Of a stretch of 64,000 nucleotides of DNA, positions 46,355 to 59,405 are shown piece after piece. Position 1 is the first letter of the stretch. Each line of letters opens with the position of its first letter. The DNA comes from Betaproteobacteria bacterium (lineage in GTDB: Bacteria > Pseudomonadota > Gammaproteobacteria > Burkholderiales > Thiobacillaceae): assembly GCA_016219425.1 (NCBI GenBank), contig JACRNB010000008.1, positions 227,248 to 291,247 on the forward strand. Direction: 5' to 3'. The notes below the pieces were generated by a model. It saw nothing but the letters and a program-made list of their open reading frames with translations, was not told the origin of the DNA and made no database searches. Made by a program: the position numbers and the translations under genes.

Positions 46355-47635
46355 TCAGGGCTTCACTTTGTCGATCACCAGTTTCACGCCCTTGCTTCCC
46401 ACCTTCACGCTGGTGAGGGTTCCCTCCAGGTCGCCGCTGGCGCCCTTGACGTCGCCGCTTTTGGAGACGCGGGCGGTGAGGTTGATTTCCTTGAAGTTGG
46501 AGAGGCGGTTGTCCGGGTTCATGGCCATGCCGTCATTCAGCTCGAACTCCAGCGGGAACTGGCTTGCGGTGGCGCGGATGGCGGCCACCGGGGCGCCGCT
46601 GGCGCCGGCGCGGGCGAACAGGAAGATGGCGTCCTGAGCGCCCACCTTGCCCTTGAGGGCGGGAGCGAGGGACAGGGTGCCCTGGATGGTGGCGTTGGCG
46701 GCCTTTTCCTTGGACTTGCCGTTGCCCGTGTCGGACAGATTGTCCATGCCCGTCAGCGTCCCCTTCAGCAGACGTTCCGCCTCCTTTTGCGCCTCCAGGA
46801 TGTCTTGGGCGTAGGGCGAATCCGGCGGCAACTGCTTGTAGAGCCGCTTCATGTAGTAGGCCGCCTTGGCGAAGCCTTTTTCCTGAAAGGCGTGAATGCC
46901 CGCCAGCTCCAGACCCTTGATGTCGTTGGGATCCTTCTCCAGGGCCTGCATCACCAGCTCGATGGGCTTGCCGGCCAGGGCGCGGTTGTTCTTGATGGCC
47001 AGGGCCTCGGCGTAGCCGGTCATGATGGAAGGCACGTCGGGGCGCAGCTTCATGGCCTTCTCGTAGGCGGTCAGCGCCTCCGGGTAGTGCCCCACGGCGG
47101 CGTAGGTCTTGGCCAGGATGCTCCAGGCCTCGCCATCGTTCGGGTCGGTCTTGGTCTTTTCCTCCACCTTCTGGATCATCTGCATGATGTCGTGCTCGCC
47201 CTTCACCTGGCCCTCGACCGCACCACCGCCGCTGGCCTGGGCTTCGGCGATGGCCACCAGGGACATGGGGTTGCCGAGCCAGAAGTAGAGGCCGAAAGCG
47301 GCTACCGGCAGGACGCCGGCCAGGGAGAAACCGAGGCGGCGGCTGGCGACCGGCGCCATCACCGCATCCTCCTTGGCGAGCGCGTCCTCCGCCAGACGGG
47401 CTTCCAGTTCGAGCTTGCCGGCCTGGAACTGCTCTTCGCTGAGCAGGCCGCCGGCGCGGTCGGCCTCCATTTCCTTCATCTGGTCACGGTAGACCGCGAT
47501 GTTGATGTCGCGGCGCGCGGTCTTGGCGGCGACCGCCTTCTTGCGCAGGAGCGGGGGCAGCACGAAGGCCAGGGCGATGGCGACGCAGAGAGCGGCGGCG
47601 AGCCAGAAAAAGGTGACGGACCAGAACGGGTTCAT
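46355..47635 (-). CDS. ccmI: Cytochrome c biogenesis protein CcmI (CycH)
   Basis: The 426-residue protein has two N-terminal helices around a cytoplasmic leucine-zipper-like loop ('YRDQMKEMEADRAGGLLSEE'), then a periplasmic TPR domain ('DGEAWSILAKTYAAVGHYPE', 'KNNRALAGKPIELVMQALEK'). The C-terminal beta domain ('GTLSLAPALKGKVGAQDAIF') is typical of the extended CcmI of betaproteobacteria. It binds the C-terminus of apocytochromes and passes them to CcmFH. It overlaps ccmH by four bases and is last in the operon. Confidence 0.93.
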   Translation of the reverse strand: MNPFWSVTFFWLAAALCVAIALAFVLPPLLRKKAVAAKTARRDINIAVYRDQMKEMEADRAGGLLSEEQFQAGKLELEARLAEDALAKEDAVMAPVASRRLGFSLAGVLPVAAFGLYFWLGNPMSLVAIAEAQASGGGAVEGQVKGEHDIMQMIQKVEEKTKTDPNDGEAWSILAKTYAAVGHYPEALTAYEKAMKLRPDVPSIMTGYAEALAIKNNRALAGKPIELVMQALEKDPNDIKGLELAGIHAFQEKGFAKAAYYMKRLYKQLPPDSPYAQDILEAQKEAERLLKGTLTGMDNLSDTGNGKSKEKAANATIQGTLSLAPALKGKVGAQDAIFLFARAGASGAPVAAIRATASQFPLEFELNDGMAMNPDNRLSNFKEINLTARVSKSGDVKGASGDLEGTLTSVKVGSKGVKLVIDKVKP

Positions 47636-48084
47636 TGCTTTTCATCCAGTAGTTGGGCGGCGGCGGCGAGTTGTTTCGCGTCCGTCGGGTTGTCTTGCAG
47701 GGTGCGGCGCTTCTTCAGGGTGACGTACCAGACCGCGCCGCCGATGCCGAGGAACAGCAGCGGCCCCAGCCACAGCAGGTAGGTCACCGGCTTGAACGGC
47801 GGACGGTAGAGCACAAAGTCGCCATAGCGCTCGGTGAGGTAGGCAACGACCTGCTGGTCATTCTTGCCCGTCTTCATCTGGGCGCGGATCTCGCGGCGCA
47901 GGTCTTCCGCCAGTTCGGCGTGGGAGCCGGCCAGGGATTCGTTCTGGCACACCAGGCAGCGCAGGTCTTCCGCCAGCTTGACCATGCGTTGCTCGATGGC
48001 CGGGTCTTCGCCCACGGGGATGGCCTCGCCGGCGTGGGTCGGAATCGCCAGGGCCAGCAGGAGGGAAATCAGAACGGCTTTCAT
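47632..48084 (-). CDS. ccmH: Cytochrome c biogenesis protein CcmH
   Basis: The 150-residue protein has a signal peptide, the thiol-reducing motif LRCLVCQ (Cys43, Cys46), a three-helix bundle, one membrane helix ('VTYLLWLGPLLFLGIGGAVW') and a short cytoplasmic tail. It reduces the apocytochrome CXXCH before heme ligation, together with CcmG. The ATG lies four bases inside the ccmG stop region. Confidence 0.94.
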   Translation of the reverse strand: MKAVLISLLLALAIPTHAGEAIPVGEDPAIEQRMVKLAEDLRCLVCQNESLAGSHAELAEDLRREIRAQMKTGKNDQQVVAYLTERYGDFVLYRPPFKPVTYLLWLGPLLFLGIGGAVWYVTLKKRRTLQDNPTDAKQLAAAAQLLDEKQ

Positions 48085-48602
48085 GCGCCCAACTCCTTCA
48101 GTTTCGGCTCGAACTTCTTCTTCCAGACTTCCGGGTCGATGGGGCCGACGTGCTTCATGCGGATCACGCCGGTCTTGTCGATGACGTAGGTCTCCGGGGT
48201 GCCGGTGACGCCGTAGTCGATGCCCACCCTGCCGCTGAGGTCGTCCGGCACGGCGTGGTAGGGACTGCCGTGTTGGCCGAGTAGCTGGGCGGCCTCGCGC
48301 TCCTTGTCCTTCCAGTTGAGGCCGACGATGGGGGCGGACTGGCTCTGGGCCAGACCCATCAGCACCGGATGCTCCTGGCGGCAGGACACGCACCAGGGCG
48401 CCCAGACGTTGAGCAGCCAGACCCGGCCCTTCATGTCGGCGGGGCTGAAGGTCTTGTCGGGTTGACCCACCAGCGGCAGGGTGAAGGCCGGGGCCGGTTT
48501 GCCGATGAAGGGCGAGGGCACCTCGCGCGGGTTGAGGAACAGACCCTTGGCGAAGAAGCCGACCAGGACGAAGAAGAGGATGAGGGGTAGCCAGCGCTTC
48601 AT
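48081..48602 (-). CDS. ccmG: Cytochrome c biogenesis thioredoxin CcmG (DsbE)
   Basis: The 173-residue membrane-anchored thioredoxin has one N-terminal helix, 'GKPAPAFTLPLVGQPDKTF', the active site WAPWCVSCRQEHP (Cys71, Cys74), and the cis-Pro region 'GVTGTPETYVIDKTG'. It keeps apocytochrome cysteines or CcmH reduced. It lies one base after the ccmF stop. Confidence 0.95.
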   Translation of the reverse strand: MKRWLPLILFFVLVGFFAKGLFLNPREVPSPFIGKPAPAFTLPLVGQPDKTFSPADMKGRVWLLNVWAPWCVSCRQEHPVLMGLAQSQSAPIVGLNWKDKEREAAQLLGQHGSPYHAVPDDLSGRVGIDYGVTGTPETYVIDKTGVIRMKHVGPIDPEVWKKKFEPKLKELGA

Positions 48603-48603
48603 C

Positions 48604-50565
48604 TCAAGCCCCCTGCGCCGCAGCGCCTGCGGGTGCGGCGGCCTTCACCGCGATGCGGTAGCGCCGGTCTGACGCCGCCAGGAAGCCGCCGATCACCAAC
48701 ATCAGCCCGCCGATCCAGAGCCAGTTGATGAAGGGTTTGTGGAATACGCGCACGGCCCAGGATTTGGCCTCTTCATCCAGGGGTTCGCCCAGGGCGACAT
48801 AGACGTCGCGGAAGAAGTTGGGGTGGATGGCGGCCTCGGTCATGGGCATGCCGGAGGCGTTGTAAATGCGCTTCTCGGGATGCAGCGTGAACAGCTTCTT
48901 GCCGTCGCGGCTCACTTCCACCGTGCCGCGGGCGGCGCGGTAGTTGGGGCCCATGCGTTCCGTGGTGCCCTGGAAGGTGAAGGTGTAGCCGGCCATGGTG
49001 GTGTGGTCGCCCACATTCATGCGCACGTCCCGCTCTTCCTGGTAATTCGCCACCAGGGTGATGCCGGCCACGCCCCAGGCCAGGCCCAGGTGGGCAAGCT
49101 GCATGCCCCAGAAGGCGCGCGGCAGACGGGTCAGGCGCGCGCCGGTCTTCAGGCGCTCGCGGAAACCGATCAGCACGGTCAGGGTGATCCATACCGCCAG
49201 GGTGAAGCCCAGGGTGGCCCAGGGGTTGAACCCCTTCAAGGTCAGCGGCAGCAGTAAGCCGGTGGCGACGGCGATGGCGAGCGCCCATTTCAGGCGGGTC
49301 ACCATGTCCGGCAGGCTGGATTCCTTCCAGCGCGTGAGCGGGCCGACGCCCATGAGGAACAGGGCGGGGGCCATCAGCGGCACGAACACGGCGTTGAAGT
49401 AGGGCGGGCCGACCGAGATCTTGCCCATGCCCAGCGCATCCATCAGCAGCGGGTAGAGGGTGCCCAGGAGCACCGAGCCCATCGCCGCCAGCAGGATGAC
49501 GTTGTTGGCCAGCAACATGGCCTCGCGCGAGAACCAGTTGAACGCGCCGCCAGTGAGCATCCGAGGGGCGCGCCAGGCGAACAGGGCGAGGGAGCCGCCG
49601 ATCACCACGACCAGGAAGCCGAGGATGAACGCGCCGCGCGCCGGGTCGGTGGCGAAGGCGTGCACCGAGGAGAGCACGCCGGAACGCACCAGGAAGGTGC
49701 CCAGCAGCGAGAGCGAGAAGGCGGTGAGCGCGAGCAGCACGGTCCAGGCCTTGAACGCGCCGCGTTTCTCGGTGACCGCGAGGGAGTGGATCAGGGCGGT
49801 GCCGGCGATCCAGGGCATGAACGAGGCGTTTTCGGTCGGATCCCAGAACCACCAGCCGCCCCAGCCGAGTTCGTTGTAGGCCCACCAGCTGCCGAGGGCG
49901 ATGCCGAGGGTGAGAAAGGCCCAGGCCACCGTGGTCCAGGGCCGCGACCAGCGCGCCCAGGCGGCGTCGAGGCGACCGGAGAGCAGGGCGGCGATGGCGA
50001 AGGCGAAGGCCACGGAGAAGCCGACATAGCCCATGTAGAGCATGGGCGGGTGGATCACCATGCCGGGGTCTTGCAGCAGCGGGTTCATGTCGCGCCCGTC
50101 GGCGGCGGCGGGCAGCAGGCGCAGGAAGGGGTTGGAGGTGGTGAGCAGGAAGGCGAGGAAGCCGGTGGAGACCAGGCCCATGATGCCGATCACGCGCGCC
50201 ACCATGTCATCCGGCAGGTGGCGCGAGAACACGGAAACGGCTGTGGTCCAGAACCCGAGGATCAATGCCCACAGCAGCATGGAGCCTTCATGCGAGCCCC
50301 AGGTGGCGGTGAAGCGGTAGATCTCGGGCAGTTGCGAGAAGGAGTTGCGCGCCACGTTCTCGACCGAGAAATCGTTGTGCAGGAAGGACCAGGCGAGACA
50401 ACCGAAGGCCAGGGCGACGAATACGAACTGCCCCTGCGCCGCCGGACGCGCCACCGCCATCAGGGTGAGGTTGCCGCGTTGTGCGCCGATGAGGGGCAGG
50501 ATGGCTTGGGTCAGCGCCAGCAGCAGCGCGATGATGAGGGCGAAATGGCCGAGTTCGGGGATCAT
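48604..50565 (-). CDS. ccmF: Heme lyase subunit CcmF
   Basis: The 653-residue polytopic protein carries the tryptophan-rich heme-handling (WWD) segment 'LGWGGWWFWDPTENASFMPW' and conserved periplasmic His residues ('WGSHEGSMLLWALIL', 'DPGMVIHPPMLYMGYVGFSV'). A C-terminal periplasmic domain follows ('GDHTTMAGYTFTFQGTTERM'). With CcmH and CcmI it ligates heme to apocytochrome c. Its usual upstream neighbour ccmE is displaced by ~670 bases of inserted genes and repeats. Confidence 0.96.
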   Translation of the reverse strand: MIPELGHFALIIALLLALTQAILPLIGAQRGNLTLMAVARPAAQGQFVFVALAFGCLAWSFLHNDFSVENVARNSFSQLPEIYRFTATWGSHEGSMLLWALILGFWTTAVSVFSRHLPDDMVARVIGIMGLVSTGFLAFLLTTSNPFLRLLPAAADGRDMNPLLQDPGMVIHPPMLYMGYVGFSVAFAFAIAALLSGRLDAAWARWSRPWTTVAWAFLTLGIALGSWWAYNELGWGGWWFWDPTENASFMPWIAGTALIHSLAVTEKRGAFKAWTVLLALTAFSLSLLGTFLVRSGVLSSVHAFATDPARGAFILGFLVVVIGGSLALFAWRAPRMLTGGAFNWFSREAMLLANNVILLAAMGSVLLGTLYPLLMDALGMGKISVGPPYFNAVFVPLMAPALFLMGVGPLTRWKESSLPDMVTRLKWALAIAVATGLLLPLTLKGFNPWATLGFTLAVWITLTVLIGFRERLKTGARLTRLPRAFWGMQLAHLGLAWGVAGITLVANYQEERDVRMNVGDHTTMAGYTFTFQGTTERMGPNYRAARGTVEVSRDGKKLFTLHPEKRIYNASGMPMTEAAIHPNFFRDVYVALGEPLDEEAKSWAVRVFHKPFINWLWIGGLMLVIGGFLAASDRRYRIAVKAAAPAGAAAQGA

Positions 50566-50576
50566 GCGGCGGCTCC

Positions 50577-50656
50577 GTCATTCCCGCGCACGCGGGAATC
50601 CAGGTTGTTGGGCTGTTGGAATGTCACGACTGGATTCCCGCTTGAGCGGGAATGAC
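50577..50656. repeat. Inverted-repeat element next to ccmF (GTCATTCCCGC family)
   Basis: Two facing hairpins form the element: GTCATTCCCGCGCACGCGGG at the left and its near-complement ending CCCGCTTGAGCGGGAATGAC at the right, 80 bases overall. Each arm is itself a hairpin. A longer, more perfect copy of the same family lies on the other side of the GIY-YIG gene at 50958-51054. Confidence 0.8.
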
Positions 50657-50658
50657 CG

Positions 50659-50949
50659 TCAGAGGATGTCTTCATACAAATCACGCCAGGCACTGTTGCT
50701 CTCCTCGATGAGCTGGATTTTCCAGTCTCGGTTCCACTTCTTGATCTGCTTCTCGCGCGTTATCGCGCCTTCCATCGTTTCATGGCGCTCAAACCAGACC
50801 AGATGGTGAACGCCGTACTGCTTGGTGAAACCCTCTGCCAGTTCCTGCTTGTGCTCGTACACCCGCTTGGGCAGGTCGCTGGTGACGCCAACATAGAGAG
50901 TGCCATTACGTCGGCTGGCCAACAGGTACACACAGGGAAGTCTGTCCAA
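50659..50949 (-). CDS. GIY-YIG nuclease-superfamily protein
   Basis: The 96-residue single-domain protein shows the GIY-YIG pattern as 'CVYLLASRRNGTLYVGVTSD' (VYL...YVG), the catalytic Arg/His helix 'LPKRVYEHKQELAEGFTKQY' and the conserved Glu in 'ITREKQIKKWNRDWKIQLIE'. It resembles YhbQ-like proteins, whose cellular role is not settled. It is flanked on both sides by inverted-repeat elements of one family, within nine bases of each, and sits inside the ccm operon on the same strand. Confidence 0.88.
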   Translation of the reverse strand: MDRLPCVYLLASRRNGTLYVGVTSDLPKRVYEHKQELAEGFTKQYGVHHLVWFERHETMEGAITREKQIKKWNRDWKIQLIEESNSAWRDLYEDIL

Positions 50950-50957
50950 GACTCACC

Positions 50958-51054
50958 GTCATTCCCGCGAAAGCGGGAATCCAGTTTGTGCGCAAAGTGG
51001 TGGTTGAACAGAAATCAGATAGACAAACTGGATTCCCGCTTTCGCGGGAATGAC
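50958..51054. repeat. Inverted-repeat element with perfect 32-base arms
   Basis: The arms (50958-50989 and 51023-51054) are exact reverse complements, beginning GTCATTCCCGCGAAAGCGGG, with a 33-base loop. Each arm contains the hairpin core ATTCCCGC-N4-GCGGGAAT, similar in form to the dRS3-type repeats of Neisseria. It separates the GIY-YIG gene from the HicB-like gene. Confidence 0.88.
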
Positions 51055-51061
51055 GGGGGCT

Positions 51062-51229
51062 TTACTCATGACCACGCAGCCCACAAAGCATCCCCACCAC
51101 CTCCCGCAGATTGGCATTCAATTCATCCAGGTTTTCGCCCTGACTATGGGCGCCGGGGAAGCCGGGGATATAGCCAACAAACAAGCCGGTCTGAGCGCAT
51201 CGTTCAACCACCGCCATATAGTTCCTCAT
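51062..51229 (-). CDS. Very small HicB-like protein (orphan antitoxin candidate)
   Basis: A 55-codon frame starts ten bases after the ccmE stop with a good ribosome site (GAGGAGTAGAAG). The product has the HicB core: 'MAVVERCAQTGLFVGYIPGF', 'PGAHSQGENLDELNANLREV', then a short end. The YIPG-PGAHSQG-L-EL-NL pattern is that of the partial RNase H-like HicB fold. The C-terminal DNA-binding domain of full HicB antitoxins is absent, and no HicA toxin is adjacent. It probably began as an inserted gene and is now translated with ccmE. Confidence 0.7.
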   Translation of the reverse strand: MRNYMAVVERCAQTGLFVGYIPGFPGAHSQGENLDELNANLREVVGMLCGLRGHE

Positions 51230-51239
51230 CTTCTACTCC

Positions 51240-51686
51240 TCACTGCACCACCGACTTCTGCGCCTTGGCCGCCTGTTCCAGGGCCTGGGCGGCCTCGGGC
51301 GGCATGTAGTTCTCGTCGTGCTTGGCCAGCACCTGGGTGGCGGCGAACGCGCCGTCCGCGCCCAGCTTGCCTTCCGCCACCACGCCTTTGCCTTCCTTGA
51401 ACAGGTCGGGAAGGATGCCCTTGTAGACCACGGACATGGTCTTGGCGGTGTCGGTGACGATGAAGCGTGTGGTCAGGCCGTCGCCCTCGCGTTTCACGCT
51501 GCCCGCTTCCACCAGACCGCCGATGCGGAAGGCCCGATCTGCGGGAGCCTTGCCTGCCGCCACTTCAGTGGGGGAGAAGAAGAACACCAGATTGCTCTGG
51601 AAGGCATTGAGGATGAGCGCGGCGGCGATGCCGAGGCCGGCCAGACCCAGGACGATGACCAGGAGTTTCTTGTGTCTGGATTTCAC
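51240..51686 (-). CDS. ccmE: Heme chaperone CcmE
   Basis: The start is a GTG overlapping the ccmD stop (GTGA), giving 148 residues; the frame extends upstream into ccmD. The protein has one membrane helix (about 7-27), an OB-fold ('[18 protein letters not shown]', '[20 protein letters not shown]') and the heme-binding motif HDENY (His123, Tyr127). It carries heme covalently from CcmABCD to CcmF. Confidence 0.95.
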
Positions 51687-51856
51687 TGCTCTTCCCACTG
51701 TTGCATGCGTTTGAGGCGGCGGCGAGTGTCGGTGTCGGCCCGGCGCAAAAGAATGACCTCGATCAAGATGACCAGGGCGGTCACCCCATAGGAACTCCAG
51801 ACGTAGAGGCCGTAGCCCCCCATCGCCCAGAAATCGGACCAGCTTGCCCAATGCAT
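51683..51856 (-). CDS. ccmD: Heme exporter protein CcmD
   Basis: The 57-residue protein begins at '[20 protein letters not shown]', followed by one helix and a basic C-terminal tail ('[20 protein letters not shown]'), as in CcmD. It releases holo-CcmE from the CcmABC complex. An in-frame Met six codons upstream lies inside ccmC and was not chosen. Confidence 0.9.
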
Positions 51857-51857
51857 C

Positions 51858-52592
51858 TCAGGCCTCCTTCGCAAGAATGTCCTTGGCCCACTCGGTCTGC
51901 CGCTCCCGCTCCAGGATGAGGCGGCGCACCCGGATGAAGGCCACGGCGATGGTGTAGAACCAGGCGGCGACGGCCAGGAGCAACATGCCGATCAGCATGG
52001 TCTGGGCCATGGAGGGGGCCTTGGTGAGGTTGATGGTGGAACCCTGGTGCAGGGTGTTCCACCACTTCACCGAGAAATAGATGATGGGGATGTTGATGGC
52101 GCCGATCAGGGTCAGCAGCGCCCCGGCGCGGTCGCCCCGGCGCACGTCGTCGATGCTGGCCCACAGGGCCATGATGCCGGCGTAGAGGAAGAGCAGGATG
52201 AGTTCCGAGGTCAGGCGCGCATCCCACACCCACCAGGCGCCCCACATGGGCTTGCCCCACGCGGCCCCGGTCCACAGGGCGACAACGGTGAACATGGCCC
52301 CGGTGGGGGCCAGGGCGCGGGACATCATGAAGGACAGCCGGGTGTTGAAGGCCAGACCGATGGCGCCCCAGAAGGCCATCACCAGATAGATGAACATGGA
52401 CATCCAGGCCGCCGGCACGTGGATGAAGATGATGCGGTAGGCCTCGCTCTGCTGGAAATCCGTGGGCGCAACGAAGAAGCTGACGTACAGGCCCACTCCG
52501 GTGAGCAGGGCGGCGGACCAGGCAAACCAGGGCGTGAGCTGTCCGGCGAGGCGGTAGAACTGGGAGGGGGCGGCGTAGGTATAGAGGCTCAT
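51858..52592 (-). CDS. ccmC: Heme exporter/handling protein CcmC
   Basis: The 244-residue protein has six helices and the WWD segment 'WGAWWVWDARLTSELILLFL', with flanking His residues in 'IIFIHVPAAWMSMFIYLVMA' and 'KWWNTLHQGSTINLTKAP'. It attaches heme to CcmE. The ATG overlaps the ccmB stop by four bases. A long upstream extension of this frame runs inside ccmB and ccmA and is not coding. Confidence 0.96.
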   Translation of the reverse strand: MSLYTYAAPSQFYRLAGQLTPWFAWSAALLTGVGLYVSFFVAPTDFQQSEAYRIIFIHVPAAWMSMFIYLVMAFWGAIGLAFNTRLSFMMSRALAPTGAMFTVVALWTGAAWGKPMWGAWWVWDARLTSELILLFLYAGIMALWASIDDVRRGDRAGALLTLIGAINIPIIYFSVKWWNTLHQGSTINLTKAPSMAQTMLIGMLLLAVAAWFYTIAVAFIRVRRLILERERQTEWAKDILAKEA

Positions 52593-53257
52593 TCGAGGGA
52601 GACCCGTAAGGCGGAGGCGGCGATCCAGGGGGCGATCATAAGGGAGAGCATCATGAAAGCGCCCAACAGTGACAGGTGAGCCTCGGCTCCAGTTCCCGCC
52701 ATCACGCCATCCACCGCGCCGGCGCCAAAAATAAGTGCGGGGATGTAGAGGGGCAGGATCAGCAGGGTAAGCAGGACGCCGCCGCCGCGCAGGCCCAGGG
52801 TGAGGGCCGCGCCCACCGCCCCCAGCAGGGAGAGGATGGGGGTGCCCAGGAGCAGGGAGAACTCCAGCACGAGGATGGCGTCCGGCGGCAGATTGAACTG
52901 GATGCCCAGAATCGGCGCGATCAACAGCAGGGGGATGCAGTAGATCAGCCAATGGGCCAGGGCCTTGCCCAGCACCAGCAGCACGGTGGGCTCCGGCGAC
53001 AGCACCATGTGTTCCAGGCTGCCGTCGCGGTGGTCGTCCTCGAACAGCCGCGCCAGGGAGAGCAGGGAGGCCAGGGTGGCGGCCACCCAGAGCACGCCGG
53101 GGCCGATGCGGGCCAGCATCTCCGGTTCCGGCCCGACCCCCAGGGGGAACAGGCTGGCGACGATGACGAAGAAGAACTGGGCGATGAGCCAGTCGCCGCG
53201 ACGGCGCGCCGCCAGGGTGAGGTCGCGACGCAGGACGGCGAGGAGGAAGCGGTGCAT
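52589..53257 (-). CDS. ccmB: Heme exporter protein CcmB (ABC permease)
   Basis: The 222-residue permease has six helices and starts 'MHRFLLAVLRRDLTLAARRR', with the CcmB phrase 'LARLFEDDHRDGSLEHMVLS'. With CcmA and CcmC it forms the complex that releases holo-CcmE. It lies six bases after the ccmA stop. Confidence 0.95.
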   Translation of the reverse strand: MHRFLLAVLRRDLTLAARRRGDWLIAQFFFVIVASLFPLGVGPEPEMLARIGPGVLWVAATLASLLSLARLFEDDHRDGSLEHMVLSPEPTVLLVLGKALAHWLIYCIPLLLIAPILGIQFNLPPDAILVLEFSLLLGTPILSLLGAVGAALTLGLRGGGVLLTLLILPLYIPALIFGAGAVDGVMAGTGAEAHLSLLGAFMMLSLMIAPWIAASALRVSLE

Positions 53258-53263
53258 CGTCTC

Positions 53264-53917
53264 TTACTCCGTCAGGTCCGGAATGGCGACGTTGCCCACC
53301 AGCAGGCGCTGCACCTTCACGCCTTCCAGATTGAGGGCCTGATGGGTGGTGGCCACCACCATGCCGCCTGCCGCCAGATGGTCGCGGATCAGGCTCTCCA
53401 TCAGGGCCACGGCGTGGACATCCAGGCCGGTGAGGGGCTCGTCCAGAATCCACAGGGTGACGCCCGCCAGCAGCAGGGCCGAGAGGGCGACGCGGCGGCG
53501 CTGGCCGAAGGAGAGGACGCGGCAGGGCAGGTCCAGGCAACGTTCCAGGCCCAGGCTTTTCAGTGTGTTCACCGCCTTGACCTCATCAAAGGGGCGGCCC
53601 TGCAGGCCGTCGGCGAAGCGCAGGTTTTCCACCGGATTGAGATCGTCCTTCACGCCGTTGGCGTGGCCCAGGTAGCACATGGCGGCATGGTAGACCTCGC
53701 GCTGGCGGGTGACGTTCTGTCCGCACCAGTGCACCTCGCCCTGCTCGGGACGGGCCAGGCCGGTGAGCAGGCGCAGCAGGCTGGTCTTGCCCTGGCCGTT
53801 GCCGCCTTGCACCAACAGCAGTTCCCCGGCTTCCAGCGTGAAGTTCATGCCCTTGAACAAAAGTCGGTCGCCCCGGGCGCAGGCCAGGTCGTGCACGGAA
53901 ATACGGGGGGGGGGCAT
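53264..53917 (-). CDS. ccmA: Heme exporter ATP-binding protein CcmA
   Basis: From the ATG at 53917 the 217-residue ABC ATPase has Walker A 'LVQGGNGQGKTSLLRLLTGL', signature 'VLSFGQRRRVALSALLLAG' (FGQRR instead of SGGQ, common in CcmA) and Walker B 'LWILDEPLTGLDVHAVAL'. ATP hydrolysis drives release of holo-CcmE. It is the first gene of the ccm operon; an upstream in-frame extension covers repeat DNA and lacks homology. Confidence 0.94.
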   Translation of the reverse strand: MPPPRISVHDLACARGDRLLFKGMNFTLEAGELLLVQGGNGQGKTSLLRLLTGLARPEQGEVHWCGQNVTRQREVYHAAMCYLGHANGVKDDLNPVENLRFADGLQGRPFDEVKAVNTLKSLGLERCLDLPCRVLSFGQRRRVALSALLLAGVTLWILDEPLTGLDVHAVALMESLIRDHLAAGGMVVATTHQALNLEGVKVQRLLVGNVAIPDLTE

Positions 53918-53970
53918 GGAGGGGGCGAGGACGAGACGAGAGGGAGGCGGCGGGAGGATAGCGGGGCGTG

Positions 53971-54023
53971 TAGCTTGGGGTCCAGGGCTCATCGACAAGC
54001 GCGATGGGACAGACCCCAAGCTA
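53971..54023. repeat. Inverted repeat upstream of ccmA
   Basis: Perfect 12-base arms TAGCTTGGGGTC and GACCCCAAGCTA enclose 29 bases. The element lies in the 167-base gap between ccmA and the octaheme reductase gene, between the ccmA start and that gene's terminator. It may be a dispersed palindrome or a regulatory structure in the ccm leader. Confidence 0.6.
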
Positions 54024-54037
54024 AAAGCTCCATTCAA

Positions 54038-54067
54038 TAAAAAGGGGCGGGTTACCCCGCCCCTTTC
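54038..54067 (-). terminator. Rho-independent terminator after the octaheme nitrite reductase gene
   Basis: On the minus strand a GGGGCGGG/CCCGCCCC stem with a short loop is followed by TTTTTATT. It begins 18 bases past the stop codon and separates the reductase transcript from the ccm operon. Confidence 0.85.
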
Positions 54068-54084: not shown

Positions 54085-55803
54085 TTACTTGGCAGCCGGT
54101 GCGGCAGCCGCCGTGGCGGCGGCCTTCTTCTTGGCCAGCTCTTCCTTGATCAGCTTGATGCCGGCCTGGGAGGCGTCGATGGAGCGGGTCAGGGATTCGC
54201 GCGCATTCTCCGGGTTGTGGAAGCCGTCAGAGTTCTCGGCGGTCCACCATTCCCAGTACAGGTTGGCGTCGTACTGAAGGTCGAACAACTTGTCCATCAC
54301 GTCAGCGCCCAGACCTGCTTCCTTGGCCTTCATGATGTAGTCGATGTACTCGGCCAGCCAGAATTCAGCCTTGGCCATCTTGCCGCGAACGTAGTTCTGG
54401 ACCGATTCCATGTAGTACTTGGCTTCGTCCTCGGACCATTCCTTGTGGCAAGACACGCAAGCAGCCTTGATGTTGTAGCGCGGGGAAATCTGCTGGTGAT
54501 TGGTGGTCACCTTGCCGTTCGCGCCCTTCTTCTTGGTCATGTGGCAGTCTTTGCACTCGACGCCAGCCTTCTCGTGCTTGGAACCCCAGTAGGTTTCCAT
54601 TTCCGGGTGCTGGATCTTGGGCAGCAGAGCGCCAGTGGCGGCGTGCTTGAAGTCCTTGAACTTGTACTGGCCCACCATCTTTTCCTTGTAACCAAACACG
54701 TTGGTCCAAGTGAACAGGTTGGTGCGCGGGTCCGACATCTTGACGTAGTACTCCTTGCCCTTCTCGGCGCAATCGAAGCCGGGGCCACAGTTGTACTCGA
54801 CGTGGCACTGGGCGCACATCAGGTTGGAGTCGGCCTTGTTCAGGATACCGATGGCGCGGAAGTCTTTGCCATTGCGCTGGAAGGTCACTTTGGTCATGGT
54901 GACCTCGGCGCTCTTCTTGGCATCCATCGGGTAGGTGCCTTCCTTGCGGTCCACAACGGCCTGGATCAGGGCGTCACGCACCACGCGGGGCTGGGCGGAG
55001 TGGGGGTCATGGCACATGTAGCAGTTCAGCGCATGCTTCACGCCGCGGGCGAATTCCACCGGCTTGGAGGTGCGATCCCACTTGGCGGCGGGGTCTTTGT
55101 CACCCATGTACTTCCAGTCCAGGATGTGATCCTGCGTCTTGCAGTTCATGCAGACGGGGTTCACGGCGGTAGCCACCTGACGCATGAAGGGCTTCTGGTC
55201 CGAGGTGCCGGGCTCCTTGTCCACAATGACGTTCCAGGCGCTGTTGGCTGCCATTTCCGCCTTGTTGATGTAGGTCCAGTCCTTGAACTGCATGCGACCG
55301 CCAAAGGCGCGGTCCACGGCCCACTGGTCCACCAGCATGAAGGCGTGGGAGCGAGGCTCGTTATGCTCCTTGGTGAAGCCGTAGCCTTCCATGAGCTTGT
55401 CGAACAGGGGCGACCGGCTCTTGGTAGTGGCCTTTTCCACACGCGCCTTCGATTCCAGGTTGGTCTGGACGAAGGAGTTGTACTGCTCTACGTGGCAAGT
55501 GGCGCAGGCGCGGTGATCCTTGATGGTCTCGGGCCGCGTACCCATGTCCTTGTTCTTGGCCGTCTTCAGGTGATCCTCCGCCACGTGGCAGTGGGCGCAG
55601 TTGACGGTGGCGTGACGTCCGGAAGTGTGGAAGTCCTCGATGTTGTCGTGACAGGAATAACACTTTTTGGCGTCCACCGGTTTGATGGGCGGGGCCTTGG
55701 CAGGGGCCGGCGCTGCCGGTTCCGCTGCGGCCTGCACACCGAAGGCGAACAGGGCTGCTGCCAACCCCATCGCCATCCGGCTCCAGATGCTTGCTCTCTT
55801 CAT
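54085..55803 (-). CDS. Octaheme cytochrome c nitrite reductase (ONR/TvNiR type)
   Basis: The 572-residue periplasmic protein has a signal peptide (about 1-26). Seven CXXCH motifs lie at 48, 69, 100, 261, 330, 417 and 449, and one CXXCK (CMNCK) at 218, the lysine-ligated catalytic heme of NrfA-type enzymes. Active-site residues match the family: Arg151 ('NEPRSHAF'), Tyr337 ('CHVEYNCG'), Gln398-His399 ('KIQHPEME') and calcium ligand Glu336. Tyr337-Asn-Cys339 reproduces the Tyr-X-Cys pair that is covalently linked in Thioalkalivibrio TvNiR. Three extra N-terminal hemes before the NrfA-like core also fit ONR. Expected reaction: nitrite to ammonium (six electrons), possibly sulfite too. The Ala/Lys-rich C-terminal tail is unusual. 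Confidence 0.88.
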   Translation of the reverse strand: MKRASIWSRMAMGLAAALFAFGVQAAAEPAAPAPAKAPPIKPVDAKKCYSCHDNIEDFHTSGRHATVNCAHCHVAEDHLKTAKNKDMGTRPETIKDHRACATCHVEQYNSFVQTNLESKARVEKATTKSRSPLFDKLMEGYGFTKEHNEPRSHAFMLVDQWAVDRAFGGRMQFKDWTYINKAEMAANSAWNVIVDKEPGTSDQKPFMRQVATAVNPVCMNCKTQDHILDWKYMGDKDPAAKWDRTSKPVEFARGVKHALNCYMCHDPHSAQPRVVRDALIQAVVDRKEGTYPMDAKKSAEVTMTKVTFQRNGKDFRAIGILNKADSNLMCAQCHVEYNCGPGFDCAEKGKEYYVKMSDPRTNLFTWTNVFGYKEKMVGQYKFKDFKHAATGALLPKIQHPEMETYWGSKHEKAGVECKDCHMTKKKGANGKVTTNHQQISPRYNIKAACVSCHKEWSEDEAKYYMESVQNYVRGKMAKAEFWLAEYIDYIMKAKEAGLGADVMDKLFDLQYDANLYWEWWTAENSDGFHNPENARESLTRSIDASQAGIKLIKEELAKKKAAATAAAAPAAK

Positions 55804-55938
55804 GGTTGATCTCCTTGCGGTTTCACAATTTGGCGACCCGTCCGGCGCCTTGCCGGCGGGCCTGCCGTTTCTAAAGGTTGGAACTCACTTTCGTGCCTGT
55901 CATAAGCCCCCTTTCTTGCCAATCACCGTTTCACAAGC

Positions 55939-57273
55939 TCAGGCGAACGCATCCGCCAGGACGTTATCCAGCCAGCCGTTGGCGTATTCCGCCTCCAGCT
56001 TGCGGTAGATCGCGGGGACCGGGGACTTGTCAGGCATGGTGACCGGGGAGACGCCGCTGGCCTCCTTGACGTACACCCAGGTTCCGTTTTCCACCTTGTA
56101 GATATGCACCACGGAGAAGCCGTAATCCGGGGCCACCACGCTGTAGCAGGTGTTGACGTAGTAGGGCGTGGGCAGGGGCAGACCGTTCACCTTGGCGATG
56201 ATGGCGCCTACGGCCACCTTGGCCTGGGTCATGGCCATGTGGGCCGACTTGGGGAAGGCGTTGTTGGTGGGCAGATCGCCGCCGACGCAGGAGTCGCCGA
56301 TCACATAGATGTCCTTCTGGCCCTTGGACTCCATGCTGTCGGGGCTCACCTCGCACCACTTGTCCTTGAATGTGGCCAGGCCCAAATCCTTCGCCACTTT
56401 GCCGGCGTGGTGGGGCGGGATGATGTTGACCACGTCGCCCTTGTGCTCGCCAAAGCCGGTGAAGCAGGTCTTGCTGGCCACATCGACGCGGACCACCTTG
56501 CCGTCCTGAGCGCCGGGCACCCACTCGATCATGCCATCCGCGCCGTAGCCGTACAGGGCCTTCCAGGCCTGCTCAAACAGACCCTTCTTGGAGAAGGAGT
56601 CGTTGGCATCCAGGATCAGCACCTTGGACTTGGCCTTGCCGTGGTGCTTGAGGTAGCTGGCCACCTGGGCGGCGCGCTCGTAGGGGCCGGGGGGGCAGCG
56701 GAAGGGGCCGGGCGGCACGGCAATGATGAACTTGCCGCCATCGGGCATGGCTTCCAGTTGCTTCTTCAGCAGCAGGGTCTGAGGGCCGGCCTTGTAAGCG
56801 TGGGGCAGTTGCTCGGCGGCGGCCTCGGAATAGCCCTCGACGGCGCCGAAGGCAAAGTCGATGCCGGGGGACAAGATCAGGGAGTCATAGCCGAAGCTCT
56901 TGCCGCCCTTGGTCTTGACCATCTTCTTACCGGTGTCGATGCCCGTGACTTCATCAAACACGACCTTGACGCCATGCTTCTTGAGGCCGTCATAGCCGCG
57001 TTCCAGGGTCTTGATCTCGCGGTGACCGGAGATGACCTCGTTGGAGAGAGGACAGGAGGTGTAGGTCTTGTTGCGCTCGATCAGGGTGACCTCGATACCG
57101 GGGTCCATCATGCGCAGGTACTTGGCGGCGGTGGCGCCGCCAAAGCCGCCGCCCACGACGACGACCTTGGCCTTGGTGGCGGCATGGGCGGCGGTCGGGA
57201 TGGTGAGGACGGCAGCGCCGGAGGCTGCGGCTGCCGCTTTGATGAAGTCGCGACGATTGATATTCAGGCTCAT
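55939..57273 (-). CDS. fccB: Flavocytochrome c sulfide dehydrogenase, flavoprotein subunit
   Basis: The 444-residue protein has a Tat signal ('[20 protein letters not shown]'), the FAD loop '[17 protein letters not shown]', and Cys74 in '[10 protein letters not shown]', matching the covalent flavin cysteine of Allochromatium FccB. Cys193 ('[11 protein letters not shown]') and Cys376 ('[10 protein letters not shown]') correspond to its redox disulfide. It oxidises sulfide to sulfur or polysulfide in the periplasm and passes electrons to FccA. It lies 11 bases after fccA and 135 bases before the octaheme nitrite reductase gene, all on one strand. Confidence 0.94.
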
Positions 57274-57284
57274 GCTGTTTCCCC

Positions 57285-57854
57285 TTACTTGCTTTGGGCG
57301 CCGAAGAAGGCGGCGGAGGTGGCCACATCCGCTTCATCCATCTTGCGGGCGTTCTTGGACATCTTCTTGTGGACCATTTTGAAGCCGTCGTCGCGGTACT
57401 TCATGAGTTCCAATTCCAAGTATTTCGCCCACTGGCCGTTCAGCTTGGGGGTCAGCTCATCATCGGGTTTGCTGCCGGTGTCGCCGTGGCAGGTTTCGCA
57501 ACGCTCGGTGACGTCCTTGCCTTTTTTCAGGACGTCGGCGCTGGTCTTTTGCACCACCGGAGCCCAGGTCTTGGAGCCGAAGTATTTGGCCAGATCGGCG
57601 ATCTGGTCATCGCTGTAGCCCTTGATCAGGCGGGTCATGGTGGCGGAGGCGCGGGCGCCGGATTTCCACTCCATCATGATGTTCTTCAGATAGGCCTCGG
57701 ACAGGCCGCCAATGGACGGCATGCTGGGGCCGGCGCTGACGCCGTTTACACCGTGACAGTTGTTGCAGGTGCGGGCTAGCCCGTCAATGTCACCGGCTTG
57801 GACGGATGTGGCCGCGCCGACGGCCAGAACCAAAGCCAGAAAGTGTTTACTCAT
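57285..57854 (-). CDS. fccA: Flavocytochrome c sulfide dehydrogenase, diheme cytochrome subunit
   Basis: The 189-residue protein has a signal peptide (about 1-20) and two class I cytochrome domains with hemes at CNNCH (30-34) and CETCH (119-123). '[20 protein letters not shown]' and '[20 protein letters not shown]' are typical of the c4/FccA family. It accepts electrons from FccB. The ribosome site AGGAGGAG precedes the ATG. Together with fccB it starts the minus-strand unit of the sulfide/nitrite island. Confidence 0.92.
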
Positions 57855-57944
57855 AATCTCCTCCTAGGACAGGAAAAAAATGCGAAGCGCAGGGGCACTT
57901 CGCGATTTGAGGCGGATGGTATGAATCGCTCAGACCCCCCCACC

Positions 57945-57958
57945 TTGATGGCTATCAA
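57945..57958. promoter_or_regulatory. FNR/CRP-type box between fccAB and the c4-like genes
   Basis: TTGAT-GGCT-ATCAA matches the FNR consensus (TTGAT-N4-ATCAA) in both arms. It lies 91 bases upstream of the fccA start and 129 bases upstream of the first diheme cytochrome on the other strand. A family member (FNR, ANR or DNR) binding here could switch either or both transcripts with oxygen or nitrogen oxides. Confidence 0.65.
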
Positions 57959-58086
57959 CTTTTTCCGCGATTTCCTTGTCCTGACTGGAGTCTTTGCCCG
58001 TAGGGGCGGTAAATCGCGCCCCTGGTCAGCTCTGCGCGGGACGAGTTGGGCGAGAATGCCGGAGCCTCCACTACAGGAATGTCCGT

Positions 58087-58710
58087 ATGCGTTTCCGAGT
58101 CAGACATTTCACAAAGGCCGCTCTGGTTCTGGGTTTCGGCCTCGCCTGCGCGGCGTCTGCTGCGCCCGGCAAGGGTGATGCCGCCAAGGGCGCAGCCCTG
58201 GCAGCCCAGTCCTGCTCCTCCTGTCACGGACCGGACGGCAACAGCGCCGTGGCCGCCTTTCCCAAACTCGCCGGCCAGCAGGAGCAGTACCTGGCGCGGG
58301 AGATGAAGGATTTCAAGGAGGGTCGTCGAGAAAGCGAGGTCATGGCCCCCTTCCTCGTCAGCCTGAATGATCAGGATCTGGCTGACCTGGCCGCCTTCTA
58401 CGCCAAGCAGAAACCCGCGGCGGCCAAGGGGGGGGATGCCGCCTTGATCAAAGCAGGCAAGAAGCTTTACCTGGAGGGCAACTCCAAGAGCGGTGTGCCG
58501 TCCTGTGATGGCTGCCATGAGGAGGATGGTACGGGCTCGAAGAAATTCCCCCGCGTTGCCGGCCAGCATGTGGACTACATCCTGGAGCAGATGCGGCTCT
58601 ACGCCGCAGGCAAGCGCAAGAACGGCGTCAAGGTCATGCTCACCGTGGCCGAACGTCTTACCGAACAGGAAACGCGCGCCGTGTCCGAGTACATGGCCAG
58701 CATGGAATAA
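58087..58710 (+). CDS. Diheme c4-like cytochrome
   Basis: The 207-residue protein has a signal peptide (about 1-26) and two c4-type heme domains, CSSCH (43-47) and CDGCH (140-144), each followed by the family phrases 'FPKLAGQQEQYLAREMKDFK' and 'FPRVAGQHVDYILEQMRLYA'. Cytochrome c4 carries electrons between periplasmic donors and terminal reductases. It is divergent from fccA with an FNR-type box between, and is followed 11 bases later by a second diheme cytochrome. The start at ATG 58087 was chosen for its clear signal peptide. Confidence 0.9.
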   Translation: MRFRVRHFTKAALVLGFGLACAASAAPGKGDAAKGAALAAQSCSSCHGPDGNSAVAAFPKLAGQQEQYLAREMKDFKEGRRESEVMAPFLVSLNDQDLADLAAFYAKQKPAAAKGGDAALIKAGKKLYLEGNSKSGVPSCDGCHEEDGTGSKKFPRVAGQHVDYILEQMRLYAAGKRKNGVKVMLTVAERLTEQETRAVSEYMASME

Positions 58711-58721
58711 AGGAATCCCTG

Positions 58722-59405
58722 ATGCGACGTACTCTGATCCCCTTCGCCTTGCTATTCGCCTGCCATGCTCACGCGGCCAACCAGCCTCGTGCGCCCGGCA
58801 TCGAGACGCCGGGTTACGTCTGGAACAAGGCCGACCCGGAAACCACCAAGGCGCTGCTGCACAAGGGCGATGCGGCCAGGGGCAAGGAGGCCTACAGGGT
58901 CTGCCGCGGCTGCCACAAGCAGGACGGTTCCGGTCTGGTCAATGGCGATTACCCGCAGCTTGCCGGACAGCTTTCTTCGGTTCTGATCAAACAGATGGCG
59001 GACATGCGCGCGGGCCGGCGCGACAACTCGAAGATGCACCCCTTCGTCGGCATGGATTTGGTATTGACGGACGATCTGGCCGACATCGCCGCCTTCCTCA
59101 ACGGCCTGCCCCCGCCACCCCAGATCGGCAAGGGCGACGGCAAACGTCTGGAGCGGGGCAAGGAACTGTACAAAAAGGACTGCGCGTTTTGTCACGGCAA
59201 GAACGGTGAAGGGAACGCCAAGTGGTTCTATCCCAAGGTTAGCCAGCAGCACTATCGCTACCTGCTTCGTCAGATCCAGGAGATCCGCGAGCAAGGCCGG
59301 CGCAACTCGAACCCGGACATGATCGAGGCGGCGAAGGACTACAGCGACCGGGATCTGGAGGCGGTGAGCGATTACATGTCGCGCCTGCCCGAGGCCCAGG
59401 AGTAA
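58722..59405 (+). CDS. Second diheme c-type cytochrome, c4-like
   Basis: The 227-residue protein has a signal peptide (about 1-19) and two heme motifs, CRGCH (61-65) and CAFCH (154-158). It differs from the preceding c4-like protein by a ~40-residue N-terminal extension ('GIETPGYVWNKADPETTKAL') and a proline-rich linker ('LPPPPQIGKGDG'). It probably works with the upstream cytochrome as a paired electron carrier for the sulfide and nitrite enzymes. It is the last gene of this plus-strand pair. Confidence 0.88.
   Translation: MRRTLIPFALLFACHAHAANQPRAPGIETPGYVWNKADPETTKALLHKGDAARGKEAYRVCRGCHKQDGSGLVNGDYPQLAGQLSSVLIKQMADMRAGRRDNSKMHPFVGMDLVLTDDLADIAAFLNGLPPPPQIGKGDGKRLERGKELYKKDCAFCHGKNGEGNAKWFYPKVSQQHYRYLLRQIQEIREQGRRNSNPDMIEAAKDYSDRDLEAVSDYMSRLPEAQE

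Follow-up and report, generated by a model that had tools for sequence, protein, structure and literature searches.

A conserved fccA-fccB-onr gene unit beside the ccm operon and a sulfide dehydrogenase lineage that exchanges its reductase partners

We analyzed a 64-kb stretch of DNA (hereafter, the window) from a Betaproteobacteria bacterium (assembly GCA_016219425.1, contig JACRNB010000008.1), which forms part of contig C5 in a genome of 3.10 Mb and 16 contigs. In it, fccA and fccB, encoding a flavocytochrome c sulfide dehydrogenase (FCSD), lie directly upstream of onr, encoding an octaheme nitrite reductase (ONR). The gaps measure 11 nt between fccA and fccB and 135 nt between fccB and onr, and a regulator box and a terminator, both predicted, frame the three genes:

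57945-57958, minus strand: FNR/Dnr-like palindrome TTGAT-N4-ATCAA in the intergenic region between fccA and c4a, upstream of fccA (pattern scan)
57285-57854, minus strand: fccA, diheme cytochrome subunit of FCSD (PDB match, two CXXCH motifs)
55939-57273, minus strand: fccB, FAD subunit of FCSD with a TAT signal (Pfam, PDB)
54085-55803, minus strand: onr, octaheme nitrite reductase with CMNCK at heme 4 (PDB, heme motifs)
54042-54065, minus strand: terminator-like hairpin with a 10-bp stem and a T tract, between onr and ccmA (prediction)

The identities of fccA, fccB and onr are clean. FccA, diheme by its two CXXCH motifs, had the heme subunit of an FCSD as its top PDB match (3vrd_A, E 8.2e-24). 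FccB carried the Pfam domains FCSD_central, FCSD-flav_bind and TAT_signal, matched the FCSD flavoprotein chains 3vrd_B, 5n1t_A and 1fcd_A (E 6e-125 and weaker) and carried the cysteines aligned with C42, C161 and C337 of 3vrd, which serve covalent flavin binding and redox activity; all three were conserved across 63 of 63 rows. The pair thereby shows the marks of an FCSD, that is, a FAD subunit with FCSD domains and these cysteines, and an adjoining gene for a cytochrome c subunit. The Onr product, encoded by a single-copy gene, aligned over 517 residues to the eight-heme nitrite reductase of Thioalkalivibrio nitratireducens (TvNiR; 2zo5/2ot4, E 2.6e-215) and contained seven CXXCH motifs and one CXXCK motif (CYSCH, CAHCH, CATCH, CMNCK, CYMCH, CAQCH, CKDCH, CVSCH). 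Eight TvNiR active-site positions were invariant in 79 of 79 rows and identical in the window Onr, among them those labeled R131, K188, Y303, C305 and H361, which include the catalytic Lys and His. An NrfA identity for onr was ruled out, as the product scored 110.8 bits against a curated cut-off of 595 and has eight heme motifs, not five. The ONR active site is described as taking in Tyr, Arg and Cys (PMC5433712; articles are cited throughout for the portions of their text covered by our literature search). FccA and Onr begin with Sec-like signals, as judged by eye, and FccB with a TAT signal, so the periplasm should be the common destination of all three proteins.

Scanning public genomes yielded 235 ONR relatives, of which the best 80 loci were kept. 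Among these best 80, fccB lay directly upstream of onr on the same strand in 33, with 39-320 nt between match ends, and an FccB was found farther off in two. Within a family set of 117 genomes, 34 contained an ONR. Thirty of the 32 close family ONRs (at least 65% identity) had an FccB of one lineage, described below, directly upstream: 28 by coordinates and two as an fccB fragment at a contig edge (L028 and L030, corresponding by coordinates to G337 and G309). Of the remaining two, one had fccB 4.9 kb away and the other was cut off. At two loci of a Thiobacillus-labeled genus (L179, L193), fccA-fccB-onr-ccm is preceded by napA at a distance of about 3 kb, bringing a nitrate-to-ammonium set together in one place; the FNR-like box is absent there.

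Most of the linked loci come from one family, and the flanking PBP7-type and fumarase genes are syntenic too, so the order could be an accident of descent signifying no functional link. We regard this as very improbable. FccAB-linked ONRs occupy three places in the ONR tree, which was built with a quick method. Of five relatives without onr that were compared at the ccm locus, three (G201, G043, G261) have the PBP7-type gene and ccmA abutting and no fccAB; the other two (G129, G167) gave no PBP7-type match on the stretch examined. FccB, moreover, was replaced under an unchanged gene order. Across 21 loci, ONR identity tracked that of CcmF (r 0.81), and FccB identity tracked ONR at 0.55 and CcmF at 0.45; in 13 locus pairs the ONRs were more than 80% identical but the FccBs less than 68%. 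Judged from these identities, the FccB before ONR has been swapped for divergent proteins of the same lineage with the gene order kept, a pattern that favors selection acting on the pairing. We also considered strict co-evolution between FccB and ONR and did not find it.

The simplest reading of the control elements is that fccA-fccB-onr forms one predicted cotranscribed unit, controlled by an FNR/Dnr-type regulator and distinct from ccm, since a box stands upstream of fccA, the fccB-onr gap holds neither box nor terminator, and a terminator follows onr. The palindrome was the sole match in 64 kb, and none of 100 shuffles contained one. A relaxed FNR-type box preceded fccA in 25 of 30 linked loci and was present in 0 of 30 fccB-onr gaps and in 1 of 30 onr-ccm gaps, against an expected rate of 0.02 per 350 nt that was computed on loci including the positives. 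It also occurred in 22 of 26 family ONR cassettes, a set that overlaps with the 30 linked loci and leaves out L204, whose contig starts in fccB. Of the 34 linked loci, 31 offered enough sequence for terminators to be scored and three did not; one followed onr in 25 of the 31, compared with 3 hits among 620 shuffled gaps and none among 155 coding windows, and none lay in the 31 fccB-onr gaps. A further terminator-like hairpin with a T tract sits in the fccA leader (57882-57903), between the box and the start codon. Some leader hairpin was seen in six further loci of the 31, at unlike places, and we considered an attenuator or chance as its origin.

The open reading frames and gene identities thus bear out the original prediction in its layout of fccA, fccB and onr on one strand with a pair of c4-like cytochrome genes divergent from them. 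Gene order, box and terminator patterns agree with fccAB-onr as a conserved unit, predicted to be cotranscribed. The prediction would have been refuted had no relative kept these genes together, which the 33 loci counted above clearly contradict.

We then considered FccAB by itself. A tree built from 63 FccBs put the proteins linked to ONR, three linked to a multiheme/cytochrome b fusion and five others on one side of a 100/97 branch, and 20 other FccBs of the order lay outside it. Defining this lineage by E up to 1e-150 and an identity of at least 60% yielded 66 FccB genes in 42 of the 117 family genomes, and the neighborhoods of all 66 were read. The tree predates 57 later-fetched loci, which are therefore placed in the lineage by E and identity only, and several of which repeat records within L002-L081. 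Directly downstream of the lineage FccB, on the same strand, we found ONR in 28 of 66 cases (window included), a pentaheme cytochrome in six, NapA in four (L107, L172, L192, L195), a PhsA/ArrA-like molybdenum enzyme scoring below the models' cut-offs in four, a HAO-family octaheme in two and an MtrC-like decaheme in one (L167). One NapA partner was tested and scored above the curated cut-off, the others being 76-88% like it; L195 was classed as 'other' in the box count and as NapA in this later partner count. The HAO-family octahemes, whose top PDB match was 4qo5 (E 3.9e-45; presumably an Ignicoccus enzyme), both sit at the PBP7-type/ccm site held elsewhere by ONR. Another 12 of the 66 adjoin a fusion of a nine-heme part and a cytochrome b561-like part, the latter below the Pfam cut-off, with 11 divergent and one codirectional. 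Overall, a multiheme or molybdenum oxidoreductase is the neighbor of 57 of the 66 FccBs in the lineage.

Several of these neighborhoods merit mention in their own right. The arrangement of fccA-fccB before napA is an apparent sulfide:nitrate counterpart of the ONR cassette, and the MtrC-like decaheme of L167 is a lipoprotein that might carry sulfide electrons out of the cell. A second FccAB, with an FccB 74% identical (L090 8974-13208 on G000 contig C13; also L106, L111 and L151-L160), adjoins a 650-aa protein with nine CXXCH motifs and a cytochrome b561-like membrane part. This fusion is possibly a link between the sulfide dehydrogenase and the quinone pool.

Relatives of the fusion, with nine or eight hemes and likely quinol-linked, also occur in seven ONR loci of Rhodocyclales/Comamonadaceae, directly upstream of onr in three, and sulfide- and quinol-linked donors may thus replace each other. 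Their presence lends some weight to a reading in which FccAB and ONR serve separate anaerobic functions and merely share an FNR/Dnr-type promoter, with ONR fed from quinol through other carriers and FccAB delivering to the general cytochrome c pool; the shared box and the predicted unit alone would produce the pairing. We nevertheless judge co-regulation alone to be rather unlikely. The lineage is joined to many multiheme and molybdenum enzymes even where the relaxed box is absent, as at the family NapA (0/4), pentaheme (0/6) and fusion (0/12) loci. The box is therefore a feature of the ONR cassette rather than of the FccAB lineage, and shared regulation leaves the choice of partner unexplained.

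For comparison, we assembled 22 background FccBs, 20 hand-picked, and hence non-random, from the listed matches and two being paralogues from the window's genome; for the 20 hand-picked loci the comparison spanned about 4 kb to either side. None of the 22 had a molybdenum or multiheme oxidoreductase gene directly downstream. FccA was diheme in 63 of 65 lineage loci (one was short and one without sequence), and in the background it was diheme in 4 of 22, monoheme in 16 and not found in two.

From these findings we propose that fccA-fccB-onr is an anaerobically induced unit encoding a quinone-independent chain from sulfide to nitrite that yields ammonium, with this FccAB lineage as a portable donor module; we give this a rough probability of 0.5. 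The FAD/cysteine site of FccB would oxidize sulfide, the two FccA hemes would take up the electrons, and FccA would, directly or via a small cytochrome, reduce the octaheme ONR, whose lysine-ligated heme 4 would convert nitrite to ammonium. Such a flow of electrons through FccAB and ONR is plausible. The chain would be soluble and periplasmic, would bypass the quinone pool and would follow 3 HS- + NO2- + 5 H+ -> 3 S0 + NH4+ + 2 H2O, consuming periplasmic protons. With both ends in the periplasm and no quinone needed, the reaction should conserve no energy; its role might then be the joint removal of toxic sulfide and nitrite, electron disposal or ammonium supply. More generally, the reuse of FccAB before other reductases suggests a movable module that passes sulfide electrons straight to them. 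We advance more tentatively, as possible rather than probable, that the lineage FccAB is a general plug-in placed before at least six kinds of terminal oxidoreductase (ONR, NapA, PhsA/ArrA-like molybdoenzyme, pentaheme cytochrome, HAO-family octaheme and MtrC-like decaheme) and beside the multiheme/cytochrome b fusion, so that swapping the acceptor would give quinone-independent periplasmic sulfide:nitrite, sulfide:nitrate and other sulfide:acceptor reactions.

The substrates could also differ from those proposed, with ONR mainly reducing hydroxylamine, sulfite or peroxide, or FccAB oxidizing a donor other than sulfide. TvNiR reduces these three compounds too (PMC5433712), and the lineage FccB forms its own clade. 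Against this, both families retain every catalytic position tested, and a HAO-family octaheme at the same site in two loci would also fit nitrogen-oxide chemistry, making other substrates improbable in our estimation.

Several observations weigh against the proposed chain. Forty-five of the best 80 ONR loci had no FccB in the available sequence, which reached 1.5 kb or more upstream in 33 of them and fell short of that in 12. Three loci (L168, L181, L188) carry fccAB at the PBP7-type/ccm site without onr, so fccAB and onr are not strictly inherited together. In G306 and G307 a distant ONR (47-48%) lies on a different contig from fccAB, and in G310 the ONR sits at a contig edge with no lineage FccB at the cut-off. 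Among the 66 lineage FccBs, one is 4.9 kb from its ONR and eight are without a partner of the kinds listed: three directly before ccmA, three before a regulator, one with no adjoining reductase and one at a contig end. Four of the 22 background FccBs, all of one family, have a molybdenum (L128, L129) or multiheme (L138, L147) gene upstream on the same strand within about 4 kb, so such neighbors are not exclusive to the lineage; these are the same four whose FccA is diheme, an overlap noticed post hoc. No sigma-70-like promoter turned up in the region. Finally, the genome holds other routes both for nitrite and for sulfide electrons. NarG and NapA are encoded, as are three cytochrome d1-type proteins (NCBIfam named none for the one tested), a NorB-like protein near the d1-type genes (by eye; NCBIfam named none) and a Nas-like enzyme beside NirB (by eye). 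On the sulfide side, three further FccB homologues and DsrAB are present. ONR is therefore one branch among several nitrite and sulfide routes.

The surroundings of these other routes gave two side observations on G000 contig C11: the three cytochrome d1-type genes share an 8-kb stretch close to narG and a norCB-like pair (L098-L100), and a second dsrA-type gene lies about 93 kb from the dsrAB pair (L205, L207). Unrelated to either, L091 1-3400 (G000 contig C9, about 127.0-130.4 kb) holds a CRISPR-like array of about 42 repeats of about 36 nt, spaced at 72-75 nt.

Two gene groups adjoin the unit in the window:

58087-59405, plus strand: c4a and c4b, encoding a pair of c4-like diheme cytochromes and running divergently from fccA (open reading frames); c4a from a likely ATG at 58087 to 58710, c4b 58722-59405
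46355-54037, minus strand: ccm operon, ccmA to ccmI (open reading frames, curated models)

The original prediction had joined the c4 pair with fccAB and onr in one island and placed a nine-gene ccm operon immediately beside it; the comparison supported neither group as part of the island. The adjacency of ccm to onr stands, with a likely ccmA start about 160 nt past the onr stop (a listed TTG start lies 47 nt past it), and eight of the nine genes were checked: CcmA, CcmE and CcmI scored above curated NCBIfam cut-offs and CcmG above the DsbE-family cut-off, CcmH reached only the related NrfF model, below its cut-off, and CcmB, CcmC and CcmF were traced by tblastn. An uninterrupted unit is not supported, since the terminator-like hairpin at 54042-54065 lies between onr and ccmA. 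As a terminator is predicted at this position both here and across the linked loci (25 of 31), we rejected a shared transcription unit; ccm is probably transcribed separately from onr, and its genes keep the same neighbors in onr-less relatives. CcmF lies directly downstream of onr in 18 of 81 ONR loci, and a single CcmF was found in the genome. Presumably, then, CXXCK and CXXCH hemes alike are handled by the general Ccm system, as has been discussed for Shewanella (PMC12285233). The c4 pair was likewise rejected as a cassette member, as it lies elsewhere, between band-7 and fumarase genes, in G088 and in the onr-less G201. In the window it flanks the FNR/Dnr-like box and may share it.

Within the ccm operon, the segment 50575-51060 between ccmE and ccmF contains a 96-aa open reading frame (50659-50949, minus strand) that is GIY-YIG-like by eye and framed by 34-nt inverted repeats of the CCGTCATTCCCGCG... 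type; it may be a mobile element of small size.

Direct electron transfer from FccAB to ONR would couple the oxidation of sulfide to nitrite ammonification outside the membrane and without energy conservation, with consequences for the balance in sulfidic waters between nitrogen retained as ammonium and nitrogen escaping as gas. Sulfide-driven reductions would then combine a movable donor module with an exchangeable reductase, and the acceptor could be predicted from gene neighbors. Both enzymes are known; the fccAB-onr pairing, which the original prediction had called unfamiliar, and the partner-swapping lineage are undescribed in the literature searched, a body of text with most subscription journals outside its scope. 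A dedicated electron donor of the octaheme nitrite reductase, TvNiR included, is not named in the portions covered of PMC5433712, PMC12285233, PMC8840924 and PMC12142623.

Among known systems, Desulfurivibrio alkaliphilus comes close in chemistry, also combining a sulfide donor, an octaheme nitrite reductase and ammonium as product; there, however, sulfide-dependent ammonification proceeds through a sulfide:quinone oxidoreductase, the quinone pool and a periplasmic Nap (PMC12142623). Pentaheme NrfA, in NrfHA or NrfABCDEFG systems, shares with ONR the ammonifying type of CXXCK heme and a homologous core, but has five hemes and is fed by quinol through NrfH or NrfBCD (PMC12285233); no NrfH, NrfB or second CcmF was seen beside the window onr. 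TvNiR belongs to the same family as Onr, with seven CXXCH motifs, one CXXCK motif and the same active-site residues, and among the Thioalkalivibrio contigs examined one ONR is followed by a CcmF (L036) and one faces, on the opposite strand, an FccAB from a different lineage (L051). Thioalkalivibrio fccAB beside a thiocyanate dehydrogenase operon likewise adjoins a periplasmic redox enzyme, but that partner is an oxidizing sulfur enzyme and not a terminal reductase (PMC5328954). With the FccAB of Allochromatium and Thermochromatium, finally, the window proteins share the FAD subunit with its conserved cysteines and the diheme cytochrome subunit, whereas their lineage forms a separate clade that is joined to reductase genes.

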